DNA of 64,000 bases from Acidobacteria bacterium 13_1_20CM_3_53_8 (lineage in GTDB: Bacteria; Acidobacteriota; Blastocatellia; Pyrinomonadales; Pyrinomonadaceae). The position numbers and the translations under genes are program-made. Position 1 is the stretch's first letter; each line of letters begins with the position of its first letter. The stretch lies in contig MNJR01000028.1 in the NCBI GenBank assembly GCA_001920415.1, positions 1 to 64,000 on the forward strand, written 5' to 3'. This document shows positions 1,745 to 16,738 of this stretch, piece by piece. The notes beneath the pieces were generated by a model, which was not told where the DNA came from, made no database searches, and was given only the letters and a program-made list of their open reading frames with translations.

Positions 1745-2269
1745 ATGGTTCATCGAACGCCCTGGGTCGAGCGCAAGTTCAATTTCGATTTTCCCGCAGG
1801 GATTTTCCCTGACATAGTAGAACGATTGCGCGGCACGCCTGCAAGATTGGAAGACCGATTGATGTCATTGCCCGCACAGATTCTGACGCGACGCGACGGC
1901 GAGCGATGGTCAATGCAGGAGCACGCGGGTCATCTGCTGGATTTGGAAGCTCTGGGGCTGGGGCGACTTGATGATTTCGAGCGCGGGCTTGAAACCTTGC
2001 GCGCTGCCGACATGCAGAATCGTAAGACCTACGATGCGAATCATAACGCCAATTCAATCGAAAACATTTTAAGTGCATTTAGCACAGAGCGCGCCGAGTT
2101 CGTGCGTCGTTTGGACGCTTATGACGACCAGTTCATACAGCGCACGGCCATTCATCCTAGACTGAACAAGCCCATGCGCGTCGTTGACCACGCCTTCTTC
2201 ATAGCCGAGCACGATGACCATCACATGGCTAGCATCACAGAACTGATTCAATTGTTCGGCGCTCAGTAG
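1745..2269 (+). CDS. DinB/YfiT-superfamily protein
   Basis: A 174-residue protein with the four-helix DinB-like fold. The first ligand helix is WSMQEHAGHLLDLEALG (His60, His63) and the last is VDHAFFIAEHDDHHMASITE, giving the three-histidine metal site (probably nickel or zinc) of the family. DinB-like proteins include thiol transferases that use bacillithiol or mycothiol and many uncharacterised stress proteins; the substrate here cannot be told. A GAGGTGAG sequence lies close before the ATG. The gene stands alone, followed by a 300-bp gap with a regulated promoter. Confidence 0.85.
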   Translation: MVHRTPWVERKFNFDFPAGIFPDIVERLRGTPARLEDRLMSLPAQILTRRDGERWSMQEHAGHLLDLEALGLGRLDDFERGLETLRAADMQNRKTYDANHNANSIENILSAFSTERAEFVRRLDAYDDQFIQRTAIHPRLNKPMRVVDHAFFIAEHDDHHMASITELIQLFGAQ

Positions 2270-2345
2270 TAAGACTGCCTTCATGATTTAGGTTCATCTC
2301 GTGCTGCGATCCATTCTCAAAAATTGAAGCCTACATTTCTCAGTC

Positions 2346-2373
2346 TTGACTTTACGTAAAATTTACGTATTAT
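2346..2373 (+). promoter_or_regulatory. Promoter overlapped by tandem palindromic operator
   Basis: A sigma70-like promoter can be read as TTGACT (2346-2351), 16 bp, TATTAT (2368-2373). The spacer contains the perfect palindrome TTTACGTAAA (2351-2360) directly followed by a near copy ATTTACGTAT (2361-2370). The two TTTACGTA cores start 11 bp apart, one helical turn. Tandem short palindromes covering a core promoter are typical binding sites of ribbon-helix-helix dimers, and the first gene downstream encodes one, so autorepression is the natural inference. Confidence 0.6.
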
Positions 2374-2388
2374 TTCCTTGAGTCTAAT

Positions 2389-2550
2389 GCTTGTTCTGGG
2401 AGCACCGGCGCTTAAAGGCTTGAGCGTACCCAACAGAACAGGCGTTGGCACGACTAGGAATAAGTTCCTTCAACTAGAACTTGCTATGCGGGGCAAGTTC
2501 GGCTGCCAAGCCGGGGAACCAATGTTCTAAGGTCTAACCTAACTAGTCGT
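2389..2550 (+). ncRNA. Structured 5' leader RNA of unknown class
   Basis: About 200 nt separate the promoter from the first gene and fold well by eye. Stem 1 pairs 2389-2398 with 2434-2443 (10 bp, one G-U) and carries an inner hairpin 2408-2415/2420-2427 closing on loop AGGC. A second domain is closed by ACGACTAG (2450-2457) with CTAGTCGT (2543-2550), a perfect 8-bp pairing. It contains AAGTTC/GAACTT (2462-2467/2477-2482) and CGGCT/AGCCG (2500-2504/2509-2513). I see no match to the TPP, cobalamin, SAM or c-di-GMP riboswitch consensus. It may be a riboswitch-like leader or a processed small RNA. Confidence 0.45.
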
Positions 2551-2576
2551 CAATCTTTCTAAGGAGACGATGAACT

Positions 2577-2834
2577 GTGAATCAAGCCAGAAAACCCTCA
2601 GCTAGAGGGTCACCAAAACTTGAAAAGGAGAAAGTTCGTTTAAGCCTCGACATTTCTCCAGAGATGAATTCGCTTCTTGAAGAACTCGCCGCTAAAACGG
2701 GGGGGACGAAGAGCGATGTTCTCCGAAAGGCTATAGCCTTGATGGAGGTTGCGGTTGATGCCAAACGGCGCGGCCTCAAATTAGGTCTCGCTGATAGGGA
2801 TCAGCAGCTCACGACGGAGATTATCGGGCTTTAA
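2577..2834 (+). CDS. Ribbon-helix-helix (CopG/Arc-type) DNA-binding protein
   Basis: An 85-residue regulator. A basic N-terminal tail of about 18 residues precedes the DNA-contacting strand EKVRLSLDI (18-26), helix 1 (PEMNSLLEELAAKTG) and helix 2 beginning at the turn GGTKSDVLRKAIALMEV, the classic RHH arrangement. The start is the GTG ten bases after AAGGAG (2561-2566); an ATG at 2570 lies out of frame and opens only an 11-codon ORF. The tandem palindromes in the promoter are the likely operator. It is followed after 20 bp by a small membrane-protein gene. RHH proteins are common antitoxins, but no known toxin is adjacent. Confidence 0.82.
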   Translation: MNQARKPSARGSPKLEKEKVRLSLDISPEMNSLLEELAAKTGGTKSDVLRKAIALMEVAVDAKRRGLKLGLADRDQQLTTEIIGL

Positions 2835-2856
2835 TCGGACTAAAGCCTACTCCGAT
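2834..2856 (+). promoter_or_regulatory. Hairpin masking the start codon of the membrane-protein gene
   Basis: ATCGGA (2834-2839) pairs with TCCGAT (2851-2856) around an 11-nt loop. The 3' arm contains the first two bases of the ATG at 2855, and no Shine-Dalgarno sequence is visible before it. Ribosomes ending the regulator gene at 2834 would melt the stem, which suggests translational coupling. This is inference from sequence. Confidence 0.4.
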
Positions 2857-3169
2857 GAAAGATGGAAAGATTAATCTCAATGACTTAGCGAATAGACCAG
2901 ACCATCAACTTTCAATTGTGCCGCGCGAGGAACCCGCTGAGAGGGAGGCGCGCCTCGAAATTGATAAAGCAGATGCCGCTCACAAGCGACGCATAGACTT
3001 TGCTCTGCACATCGCTGCGTTCATTGTGGTCGGTGTTGCGCTTTGTCTCTGTGTCTGGGCAATCGTCAGAGAAGGATCAACCGCTGAAGATAAACGGTGG
3101 GCGACCACGTTAATCACAGCAATCGTGACGGGCTTCGTCGGCTACGTTACCGGCAGGTCAACAAAGTGA
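2855..3169 (+). CDS. Small membrane protein with two predicted transmembrane helices
   Basis: A 104-residue protein. A charged cytoplasmic-looking N-terminal half (residues 1-46, with REEPAEREARLEIDKADAAHKRR) precedes a first membrane helix (about 48-68, ALHIAAFIVVGVALCLCVWA), a short charged loop, and a second helix (about 82-99, TLITAIVTGFVGYVTG). No enzyme motif is present and I do not recognise the family. It forms an operon with the RHH regulator, with its start codon in a hairpin. The pair could be a stress-regulated membrane cassette or an atypical toxin-antitoxin module; neither is shown. Confidence 0.65.
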   Translation: MKDGKINLNDLANRPDHQLSIVPREEPAEREARLEIDKADAAHKRRIDFALHIAAFIVVGVALCLCVWAIVREGSTAEDKRWATTLITAIVTGFVGYVTGRSTK

Positions 3170-3334
3170 GAGATTGATAGCTGCATGCTTTATCTGGACG
3201 CACTTGCTGTCTCATGCAAAGCGGCATGCGAACCGCATTACTCTCTTATTGCTTCAACCGCTCTCGCCAAACGCGGTGTTTGAGTTGTATTATTCTCTCA
3301 CCTCTCAAATTCTATTATCACAGGAGTTCTGGCT

Positions 3335-6328
3335 ATGAACAGTAGACGTTTTCGGCTGCTCGCGTGGGCGCTTCCCGCGCTCGCTGCTTTACTCTCTTTA
3401 CCGTTGATTGAAACGACTCATGCCAACACAGAAGGAGGAACAGCTTTGCAGGAGCAACTGCCTACAGGCGTGACGTTCGTTACCGAGTCAGGGGGAACGC
3501 GCGAGTACAGACTCGCAAACGGGATGAAGGTCTTGCTGGTAGAGAATCGGGTTGCGCCCGTTGCGACCATGCTGGTTGTTTACAAGGTCGGCTCGCGCAA
3601 CGAGGCCGTTGGCTACACGGGTTCCACGCACCTTCTTGAACACATGATGTTCAAGGGCACGCCGACTTTCAATAAGGCTAACAACACGCAGATAGCCGCG
3701 ACTTTGCAGAAGATAGGCGCAAATTTTAACGCGAACACATGGTACGACCGCACAATGTATTTCGAGACGGTGCCGTCGGATCAGATTGAGCTTGCTATAA
3801 AGCTCGAAGCAGACCGCATGCGCAACTCTTTGATCGCCGATGCTGATCGTCAATCAGAGATGACTGTGGTTCGCAACGAGTTGGAGCGCGGACAAAACGA
3901 GCCTTCAGAAGTTCTGGACGAAGCCGTTTACTCGCTTGCGTTCCGCGAACATCCTTATCATCACCCGACTATAGGCTGGCGCACAGACGTTGAAGGCGTG
4001 CCGACCACAAGGCTTAAAACTTTCTACGATACGTTCTACCAGCCGAACAACTCCACGGCGATTTTAGTCGGCGACTTCGACCGTGGAGGCGCGCTCTCGC
4101 TCATCAGCAAATATTTTGGCGTCTATCAGGCTCCGGCTCAGCCCATCCCGCAGGTTTACACGGAAGAGCCGCCGCAACAGGGCGAGCGTCGCGTTACCAT
4201 TCGCCGCGCTGGCGAAGTGCCGCTCGTTGAGATTGCGTTTCACACGCCGGGCACGCTGGGCCAAGGCAATGTTCTCTCTAATGAAGATTTGGCGAAGAGA
4301 GCTTTGAACCCGCCCGCGCAGAACGATACCTACCCGCTCGCAGTGCTTTCGACCATCTTGTCGCAGGGCGTGACCAGCAGGCTCTATCAAGCGCTCGTTG
4401 AAAAGCAGCTTACAATCAACGTCTTCTCGAATGCGGATCAACACCGCGACCCAGGTCTTTTCGAGGTTGCAGCCACGCTACGCCCCGGCGTTGAACCGAG
4501 ACAGGTGGAGGATGTGATTCTCGCAGAGTTGAAGCGCGTAGTGGATTCCGGCGTGACACAGGCCGAGATTGATAAGGCCAAGCAGCAGATTCTGGCGCAG
4601 GAGGCTTTCAACCGCGACGGCACTTTCAACATCGCCGCGCAGATGGCAGAGACTGAAGCAATCGCCGACTGGCATTTTTTCCAGGATTACAGCGCCAACA
4701 TCTCCAAAGTAACTGCCGCCGATGTGCAGCGCGTTGCCACGACCTATTTTACGGAAGATAACCGCACGGTCGGTTATTTCATTCCAAAGCAGGCAGCGGG
4801 TGGTAATCAACGCGGCGGCGCGCGTCCGAGCGGGTTGCAAGAATCTGACTCCAATTCACTGTTTCAGCGCGGCGTTCAGTTCTATCGCACGCCGGGCGAT
4901 GACATGAGTTCGGACAACTCAACTCAGCAGAGCAGTAGGAACGATTCGTCCGCTTCGCACGCTCAGACTCAGCGCACACAGCAAAGACGCAACGCTGCTT
5001 CTTCAAGTACGACTACCGCGAGCGCGCAAAGTGGTTCGACTTTCGCTTCGCGTGTCACGCGCTCGCAGCTTCAGAACGGCTCGACGCTCCTTGTGCTTGA
5101 AAACCACGCTACGCCGACCGTAGCGCTTCGCGGCTCGTTCCGCGCAGGCTCTTACTTCGAGCCGCAGACGAAGCCCGGACTTGCGCGCATCACAGCAGAC
5201 ATGCTTGAGCGCGGCACACAGCATCGCACCAAGCTTCAATTAGCTTCAGACTTGGAATCCGTAGGCGCGGAGATTAATTACGGGGCGGATCAATTTGCCG
5301 TGAACATGGTGGCGCGTTCGCTCTCGCGCGACCTGCCTCTGGTGATGCGAACTCTAGCGGAAGAACTGCGCGAGCCTTCTTTCCCTGCTGATGAACTGGA
5401 GAAATTGAAGCAGCAGACCATAGGCGCTATACGCGAGGATCAGGCGCGCACAAGCTCTCGCGCCTATGAGCGGTTCAGCGAGTTGGTCTTCGATCCCGCG
5501 AACCCTTTTTATCAGCGTCCGGGCGAAGAGTTGATACGCAGCATACAGTCAATCACGGTTGACGACGTGCGCAACTTTTACAACGAGCATTACGGCGGGC
5601 GCTCTTTGATACTCACGGTTGTGGGCGACGTGAACGCGGCTGATGTTCGTCGTCAATTCGAGCAATCGTTCGGCCAGTTCGCAGGCCCGCGCAGCATTGA
5701 CATCAACGTCACAGACCCACAGCAACAAACGGCTGCTCGCCGCGAAGTGTTGACCTTGCGCGAGAGGGCGAACGTTGACATAGTGCTTGGCTCTGCTGCC
5801 CCTTTGCGCCGCAACGCGCGCGATTATTACGCGGCCATCTTAGCGAACCGCGCGCTGGGACAATCAACGCTCTCGTCGCGTCTGGGTCTTCAGGTACGCG
5901 ACCGCGAAGGCTTGACCTACGGCATAAACTCGCGCTTCCGCGCGCCCAGCATTGCGGCAGGCCCCTGGTACATAGGCGTCTCTGTTAATCCTAAGAACGT
6001 TGATCGCGCAATAGCATCTACGATGAGCGTGTTGCGCGACTATGTGCAGAACGGAATCAAGCCGGAAGAGTTGGCCGCCGAGAAATCTTCGGCCATAGGC
6101 TCGTTCAAAGTCTCGCTTGCTACGAACGCCGGCATAGCTGCCGCGCTCTGGAACGCGGAGTTCTACAATCTGGGCGTGGACTACATTGACCGCTACCCGC
6201 AGATCATCAACTCCGTCACGCTCGAAGAGGCCAACGCGGCGATAAAGAAATATTTCAGGCCAGATCAAATGACCATAGTAATCGCTGGCGATTACGAAGC
6301 GACGCCGCCAAACACGCCAACACCTTAA
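3335..6328 (+). CDS. M16-family zinc metallopeptidase, fused double-domain form, exported
   Basis: A 997-residue pitrilysin-family protease. A signal peptide (LLAWALPALAALLSLPLIE) leads into an active M16 unit with the inverted zinc motif HLLEH (His99, Glu102, His103) and the third ligand near Glu182 in NELERGQNEPSE. A Gln/Ser-rich linker (about 490-570) joins a second M16 unit. There the zinc motif is absent; the matching segment reads GLARITADMLERGT, so this half is the catalytically inactive partner. Fusing active and inactive units reproduces the heterodimer of mitochondrial processing peptidase-like proteins. The likely role is degradation of peptides in the periplasm. It is transcribed alone. 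Confidence 0.93.
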   Translation: MNSRRFRLLAWALPALAALLSLPLIETTHANTEGGTALQEQLPTGVTFVTESGGTREYRLANGMKVLLVENRVAPVATMLVVYKVGSRNEAVGYTGSTHLLEHMMFKGTPTFNKANNTQIAATLQKIGANFNANTWYDRTMYFETVPSDQIELAIKLEADRMRNSLIADADRQSEMTVVRNELERGQNEPSEVLDEAVYSLAFREHPYHHPTIGWRTDVEGVPTTRLKTFYDTFYQPNNSTAILVGDFDRGGALSLISKYFGVYQAPAQPIPQVYTEEPPQQGERRVTIRRAGEVPLVEIAFHTPGTLGQGNVLSNEDLAKRALNPPAQNDTYPLAVLSTILSQGVTSRLYQALVEKQLTINVFSNADQHRDPGLFEVAATLRPGVEPRQVEDVILAELKRVVDSGVTQAEIDKAKQQILAQEAFNRDGTFNIAAQMAETEAIADWHFFQDYSANISKVTAADVQRVATTYFTEDNRTVGYFIPKQAAGGNQRGGARPSGLQESDSNSLFQRGVQFYRTPGDDMSSDNSTQQSSRNDSSASHAQTQRTQQRRNAASSSTTTASAQSGSTFASRVTRSQLQNGSTLLVLENHATPTVALRGSFRAGSYFEPQTKPGLARITADMLERGTQHRTKLQLASDLESVGAEINYGADQFAVNMVARSLSRDLPLVMRTLAEELREPSFPADELEKLKQQTIGAIREDQARTSSRAYERFSELVFDPANPFYQRPGEELIRSIQSITVDDVRNFYNEHYGGRSLILTVVGDVNAADVRRQFEQSFGQFAGPRSIDINVTDPQQQTAARREVLTLRERANVDIVLGSAAPLRRNARDYYAAILANRALGQSTLSSRLGLQVRDREGLTYGINSRFRAPSIAAGPWYIGVSVNPKNVDRAIASTMSVLRDYVQNGIKPEELAAEKSSAIGSFKVSLATNAGIAAALWNAEFYNLGVDYIDRYPQIINSVTLEEANAAIKKYFRPDQMTIVIAGDYEATPPNTPTP

Positions 6329-16572: not shown

Positions 16573-16687
16573 AAAGGCAAAAGTAAAAAGGTAAAAGGCA
16601 AAAGTGAAGACACGCCTAAAGACGTGAATTAGAAATTCAGAATGGTTTCCGCCTTACTTTTGCCTTTTACCTTTTTACTTTTGCCTT
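16573..16687. repeat. Low-complexity palindrome (AAAGTAAAAAGGTAAAAGGC type)
   Basis: The arms read AAAGGCAAAAGTAAAAAGG and the inverse CCTTTTTACTTTTGCCTT, around a 45-nt centre. It lies between the divergent pepP and aldehyde dehydrogenase genes. Confidence 0.8.
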
Positions 16688-16738
16688 ATTTATGCTGGCA
16701 TAGAAACTATCTTTAGGAGATAATCTGGCGCAAAGACG

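Follow-up and report, generated by a model that had tools for sequence, protein, structure and literature searches.

An RHH-2TM operon with a conserved structured leader RNA in Acidobacteriota

Near one end of the window (by which we mean the whole 64,000-nt stretch of acidobacterial DNA that was analysed), a sigma-70-like promoter leads into a long folded leader, a GTG-started gene for a ribbon-helix-helix (RHH) regulator and, beginning 20 nt after it, a gene for a protein with two transmembrane helices (2TM), all on the same strand (Table 1). These parts had been proposed in a preliminary description of the sequence, and the leader of about 200 nt (2381-2576), the RHH gene and the membrane-protein gene are each present at the locus.

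Table 1. Features of the RHH-2TM operon, in window coordinates
Feature	Position	Strand	Basis
Sigma-70-like promoter, TTGACT-16 nt-TATTAT	2346-2373	+	Like arrangements read in L010 and L011
Candidate operator, two TTTACGTA boxes in the promoter spacer	2351-2369	+	Genome-unique; kept in L010 and L011
Structured leader core, P1 and P2	2381-2549	+	Begins at the predicted transcription start; folding, covariation, covariance models
P1, long 5'-terminal hairpin (2384-2397/2435-2448)	2384-2448	+	Two-sided changes at 9 of 16 modelled pairs
P2, multibranched domain	2451-2549	+	Every helix with two-sided changes
P2a	2451-2457/2543-2549		
P2b	2458-2461/2524-2527		
P2c	2464-2468/2515-2519		
P2d	2477-2484/2493-2500		
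P2e	2501-2504/2509-2512		
Weak SD hairpin, AAGGAG (2561-2566) in loop and 3' arm	2553-2572	+	Folding
RHH (CopG-like) regulator, 85 aa, GTG start	2577-2834	+	ORF, profile and homologue comparison, AF2 model
P3, 6-bp hairpin ACCCTC-AGCTA-GAGGGT in the N-terminal coding extension	2594-2610	+	Three loci
2TM protein, 104 aa, N-terminal LNDL motif, C-terminal VGYVTGR	2855-3169	+	Profile search, model

The RHH protein of the window matches Pfam RHH_3 and RHH_1 at E 6e-4, just below the cut-offs (20.1/21.6 and 20.0/20.5 bits). A relative at a Methylococcaceae locus (L013) exceeds both cut-offs and an AF2 model of moderate confidence recovers the helix-helix part, which together place the protein among the CopG-like regulators. 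Searches by fold returned chains of TacA, CopASO and VapB among weak matches without significance. The 2TM protein is modelled as a helical hairpin (H27-71/H77-103; AF2 pLDDT 74, moderate confidence) and has no family above cut-off in Pfam, NCBIfam or PADLOC and no meaningful match in the PDB by sequence or by fold. Weak matches to the holin family phrog_3427 (2.5e-5) and to SLATT (0.02-0.04) were obtained; a holin assignment was rejected, the PHROG match being weak only and the neighbours being housekeeping genes with no lysis genes adjacent. A role as membrane effector is plausible. Both genes are under purifying selection at the acidobacterial loci (dN/dS about 0.06-0.2), and two short motifs are conserved, EIIGL at the C-terminus of RHH proteins with membrane partners and [IV]DLN at the N-terminus of the 2TM proteins.

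The promoter has counterparts at two related acidobacterial loci, L010 in genome G038 (TTGCTT-17-TATTAT) and L011 in genome G026 (TTGAAT-TATAAT). Two copies of TTTACGTA (2351-2358 and 2362-2369), spaced 11 bp start to start, overlap the promoter spacer and the -10 element. They had been described as two palindromes one turn apart; the boxes and their spacing stand, but TTTACGTA is not itself palindromic, whereas its core TACGTA is (TTTACGTAAA in the first box). The pattern TTACGTAnnnnTTACGTA occurs in the 64-kb window here only (0.09 expected with 2 mismatches), and the 6.1-Mb assembly holds no second copy with up to 1 mismatch allowed, so that a regulator reading this pattern most likely governs this operon alone. 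Because the boxes lie inside the promoter spacer and are unique in the genome, repression of the operon by its own RHH product through this putative operator is well supported by inference, in keeping with the transcriptional autocontrol originally suggested, and the boxes are kept at both related loci.

Downstream of the promoter, the sequence 2375-2600 has a folding energy of -76.1 kcal/mol, whereas shuffled versions average -62.1 (z -3.05). The P1 hairpin starts near the predicted transcription start in the window, L010 and L011, and bears at its apex a conserved GGCUUGAG (2417-2424); in L011 the apical stem is not kept and the GGCUUGAG sequence alone remains. In the multibranched domain, P2a closes the structure with P2b and P2c, the P2d and P2e hairpins show most clearly in two copies, and two of the three leaders keep an internal loop (AA/CAAU). 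The SD tract of L010 and L011 likewise falls in short hairpins, which are weak and unrelated in sequence. The last element, P3, lies in the coding region of an N-terminal extension that the RHH proteins of these three loci possess and the other aligned homologues lack. It is perfect and sits +17 nt from the GTG in all three, with two covarying pairs, and a similar 6-bp hairpin arises at that place in about 1% of codon-shuffled sequences for each locus.

Leaders of this kind are carried only by these three loci, all from genome bins (two named metagenome-assembled genomes and, for the window, an incomplete assembly), and the copies have diverged apart from short blocks. Since MAFFT misplaced the L011 copy, we used a manual, N-padded alignment (A6) that was fitted to the structure. 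One fold of 44 pairs fits all three leaders, with 95.1% of 122 scorable cells paired, and two-sided changes are seen at 20 of the 44 pairs, against a shuffled mean of 9.0 and 0-5 when the partners are slid. Because the fold had guided the manual alignment, we ran an independent covariance-model test, with shortened calibration. A model built from the window and L010 alone recovered the L011 leader in exact register (E 0.0027 over 138 kb), whereas the same alignment stripped of its base pairs recovered nothing beyond the two copies it was trained on, with E up to 10 allowed, and the covariance analysis suggested in the preliminary description thus came out in favour of the leader.

Could the fold nevertheless be a product of the alignment, and the unit an ordinary RHH autorepressor operon? 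Such a reading could draw on the small number of sequences, their manual alignment and the unremarkable z-scores of the L010 and L011 leaders taken alone (-1.0 and 0.2), but we regard it as extremely unlikely, given that two copies predict the third in register where sequence alone fails, that the slid controls collapse, and that P3 independently recurs at an identical offset. Judged by sequence comparison, the leader is a real conserved RNA structure that begins close to the start of the transcript and reaches into the coding sequence. A lack of conservation of the pair or the leader is excluded, because the pair and the operator are conserved and the leader held up in the covariation test.

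The full leader model found no further copy in 119 family genomes and, in the 396-genome phylum sample, the window's own copy only; no convincing copy was seen at the loci of other phyla, the leader being absent from non-acidobacterial pairs, no leader DNA was found in plasmids, and Rfam gave no family match up to E 5. The leader RNA of the RHH-2TM operon is previously undescribed and lineage-specific. Two other signals were rejected as homologues. A second match in the window (16589-16706) is a long inverted repeat that has arms of about 40 nt, is rich in GGCAAAAGT / ACTTTTGCC and looks intergenic, and a match at L013 scores weakly and lies on the other strand. Genome G391 has a leader of its own, about 125 nt long and moderately stable (L020:1736-1875, minus strand; z -1.96), which follows a degenerate form of the operator and is unrelated to that of the three loci.

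The leader probably controls translation in cis, and its 3' part brackets the ribosome-binding site and the start codon. Of the RNA-level switch envisaged earlier, the conserved structure and this placement were borne out, and a switching element (alternative form, ligand or attenuator) was not. No alternative pairing is common to all three leaders, and the plus strand of the leader shows no terminator-like site, which makes transcription attenuation unlikely. A leader peptide was discarded, the 50-aa TTG ORF at 2378-2530 having no counterpart in L010. A fold at the 5' end that is both complex and conserved, the apical GGCUUGAG, the internal loop kept in two copies and the termination of the leader at the ribosome-binding site could also be expected of a metabolite- or ion-sensing riboswitch over the operon. 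We nonetheless consider this quite improbable: the conserved-sequence core is small, no expression platform was recognised, the Rfam search was negative, and the RNA, present in three of the 119 family genomes and in the phylum sample represented by the window alone, is confined to this operon, which argues against a general metabolite riboswitch. There is likewise a very small chance that the leader itself, released or antisense-regulated, is the RNA partner of a membrane toxin in a type I- or III-like manner. It travels solely with this module, and type I toxins are typically small membrane proteins whose transcripts have structured 5' leaders (PMC8309996), yet no promoter-like site was found on the minus strand of 2200-3400, modules in other phyla lack the leader, and the first gene encodes the RHH protein and not the presumed toxin.

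The RHH protein is sparsely distributed in the phylum, occurring in 3 of 119 family genomes searched (the window's own included), 4 of 162 genomes searched in the class and 2 of 396 in an even sample of the phylum. The acidobacterial loci differ in their neighbours, with DinB and an M16-like peptidase in the window and, downstream in G038, a gene that reads by eye as presumably ribosomal protein S15; in the latter genome, inverted REP-like repeats (GAAGCCCCGTCAGGGGC) are clustered directly upstream of the module (L010:4490-4700). Beyond the phylum, Nostoc and a Methylococcaceae bacterium encode the protein, as do plasmids of Calothrix, Burkholderia, Massilia, Paracoccus, Klebsiella and E. coli, and the phages searched gave none. 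A 2TM profile built from the window and G038 proteins only, searched against 2051 ORFs, matched the gene on the 3' side of RHH in Burkholderia (1.9e-16), Massilia (3.7e-16), Nostoc (3e-10), the Methylococcaceae bacterium (3.5e-10) and Paracoccus (5e-8). In the order to which the Methylococcaceae bacterium belongs, the RHH protein is encoded in 35 of 251 genomes, and at 24 of the 27 loci inspected its gene is adjoined by the 2TM gene, mostly within 6 nt or overlapping by 4. The pair, which had been recommended for a search in other genomes, is therefore conserved across phyla, in Cyanobacteriota and alpha-, beta- and gammaproteobacteria, is often plasmid-borne, and its two genes usually abut or overlap. 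No curated family corresponds to the pair, and we found no paper describing it, consistent with the initial remark that no named system of this composition was known.

Variants of the module were also observed. RHH homologues without a 2TM neighbour occur at L026, L035 and L036, and two Nostoc loci (L012:5362-5670 and L014:5353-5709) have an extra gene between RHH and 2TM, that of L014 being a weak RHH-profile match. A 4.1-kb ColRNAI plasmid of Klebsiella carries a third small ORF after an RHH and 2TM-like pair (L027:541-810), Cas2/SinR-like by eye and with a weak DUF3884 match only in Pfam. In G391 the 2TM gene beside an intact RHH gene has an in-frame TAG after which the frame continues (L020:1271-1477, minus strand), reflecting either a pseudogene or an assembly error, and truncated copies are also found among the loci of the Methylococcaceae genome's order.

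Two adjacent, co-oriented small genes with an antitoxin-like DNA-binding protein encoded first are the layout of type II toxin-antitoxin (TA) systems, and relatives of the RHH protein strengthen this resemblance. The family is present in 44 of 145 Nostocaceae genomes, where many members have a longer C-terminus and are followed, with a 4-nt overlap, by a gene for a PIN-domain protein; all seven partners tested belong to PF01850 (E 5e-12 to 3e-15; L040, L041, L044, L047, L058, L063 and L032) and the pairs are VapBC-like, a combination of RHH antitoxin and PIN toxin being classed as VapBC. Other Nostocaceae RHH genes pair with a one-TM protein, showing that partners, PIN or membrane protein, are exchanged inside one RHH family. 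The RHH-2TM layout is TA-like because these related proteins precede PIN-domain toxins, and the PIN pairing, plasmid carriage, patchy presence and broken copies together suggest, by analogy, that the 2TM protein occupies the place of the toxin.

A different circuit, somewhat unlikely in our view, would make the 2TM protein an anchor or sensor in the membrane that traps the RHH protein, so that a change in membrane state relieves repression and the protein acts as a membrane-tethered antirepressor, not a toxin. It would make use of a proposed contact between [IV]DLN and EIIGL, both conserved in membrane-partner pairs, and fits a unique operator through which the RHH protein appears to regulate itself alone, as well as the Nostocaceae variants that retain a one-TM partner. 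Plasmid carriage, patchy spread and broken copies, however, better fit a selfish or defence module, and related RHH genes pair with PIN toxins.

We see roughly even chances for a mobile TA-like two-gene module comprising an RHH autorepressor, a 2TM membrane effector and a cis-acting, lineage-specific leader that would either limit or stabilise translation. In this TA-like module, the RHH protein would bind the paired TACGTA boxes in its own promoter and repress the operon, while the 2TM protein would be a small membrane-acting effector whose activity or amount is checked by the RHH protein, by analogy with the RHH-PIN loci. In a Blastocatellia-like lineage of the Acidobacteriota, the transcript would open with the folded leader of approximately 170 nt whose structure is shown by covariation; its 5' stem, multibranched domain, SD hairpin and coding hairpin would most probably affect mRNA stability and the initiation of RHH translation in cis, an effect that would reach the nearby 2TM gene through RHH translation. 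A more specific proposal, which we consider unlikely, is that the leader is a functional RNA part of a membrane TA-like module under three simultaneous restraints: a protein operator, a 5'-terminal fold and an antitoxin-coding hairpin.

The RHH-2TM module, so far without a name, spans at least three phyla and several plasmids; tractable Pseudomonadota carry homologues of it, and the new structured RNA is tied to it alone. If the 2TM protein is toxic, the module would be an RHH-controlled membrane toxin, where an RNase or an acetyltransferase is usual, and the acidobacterial leader would illustrate how a module of this sort gains an RNA control layer.

Several known systems share features with this operon. 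Like candidate cis-regulatory RNAs of Rfam and comparative genomics (PMC2864571), it has a conserved, covarying 5' leader beside a regulator gene, although this one has no Rfam match and is found with one operon in three genomes. Holins and SLATT effectors resemble the 2TM protein in having two TM helices near the C-terminus and in the weak phrog_3427 and SLATT matches, but the SLATT matches are far below curated cut-offs, the PHROG match is weak and lysis genes are not adjacent. The type I toxins Hok, TisB and Ldr are also small membrane proteins from transcripts with structured 5' leaders, whereas here a protein regulator is encoded first, no promoter-like site for an antisense RNA was found in 2200-3400 and the protein has 104 aa and two TM helices. 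In type II systems with RHH antitoxins (VapBC/RHH-PIN, ParDE, TacAT and CopASO), the second gene encodes a soluble enzyme instead of a 2TM membrane protein, which belongs to no known toxin family in Pfam, NCBIfam or PADLOC, and the toxin and antitoxin roles here are putative; the operon nevertheless shares with these systems an RHH gene in first place, an effector gene that follows and often overlaps it, a candidate operator in the promoter, plasmid carriage and a patchy spread.
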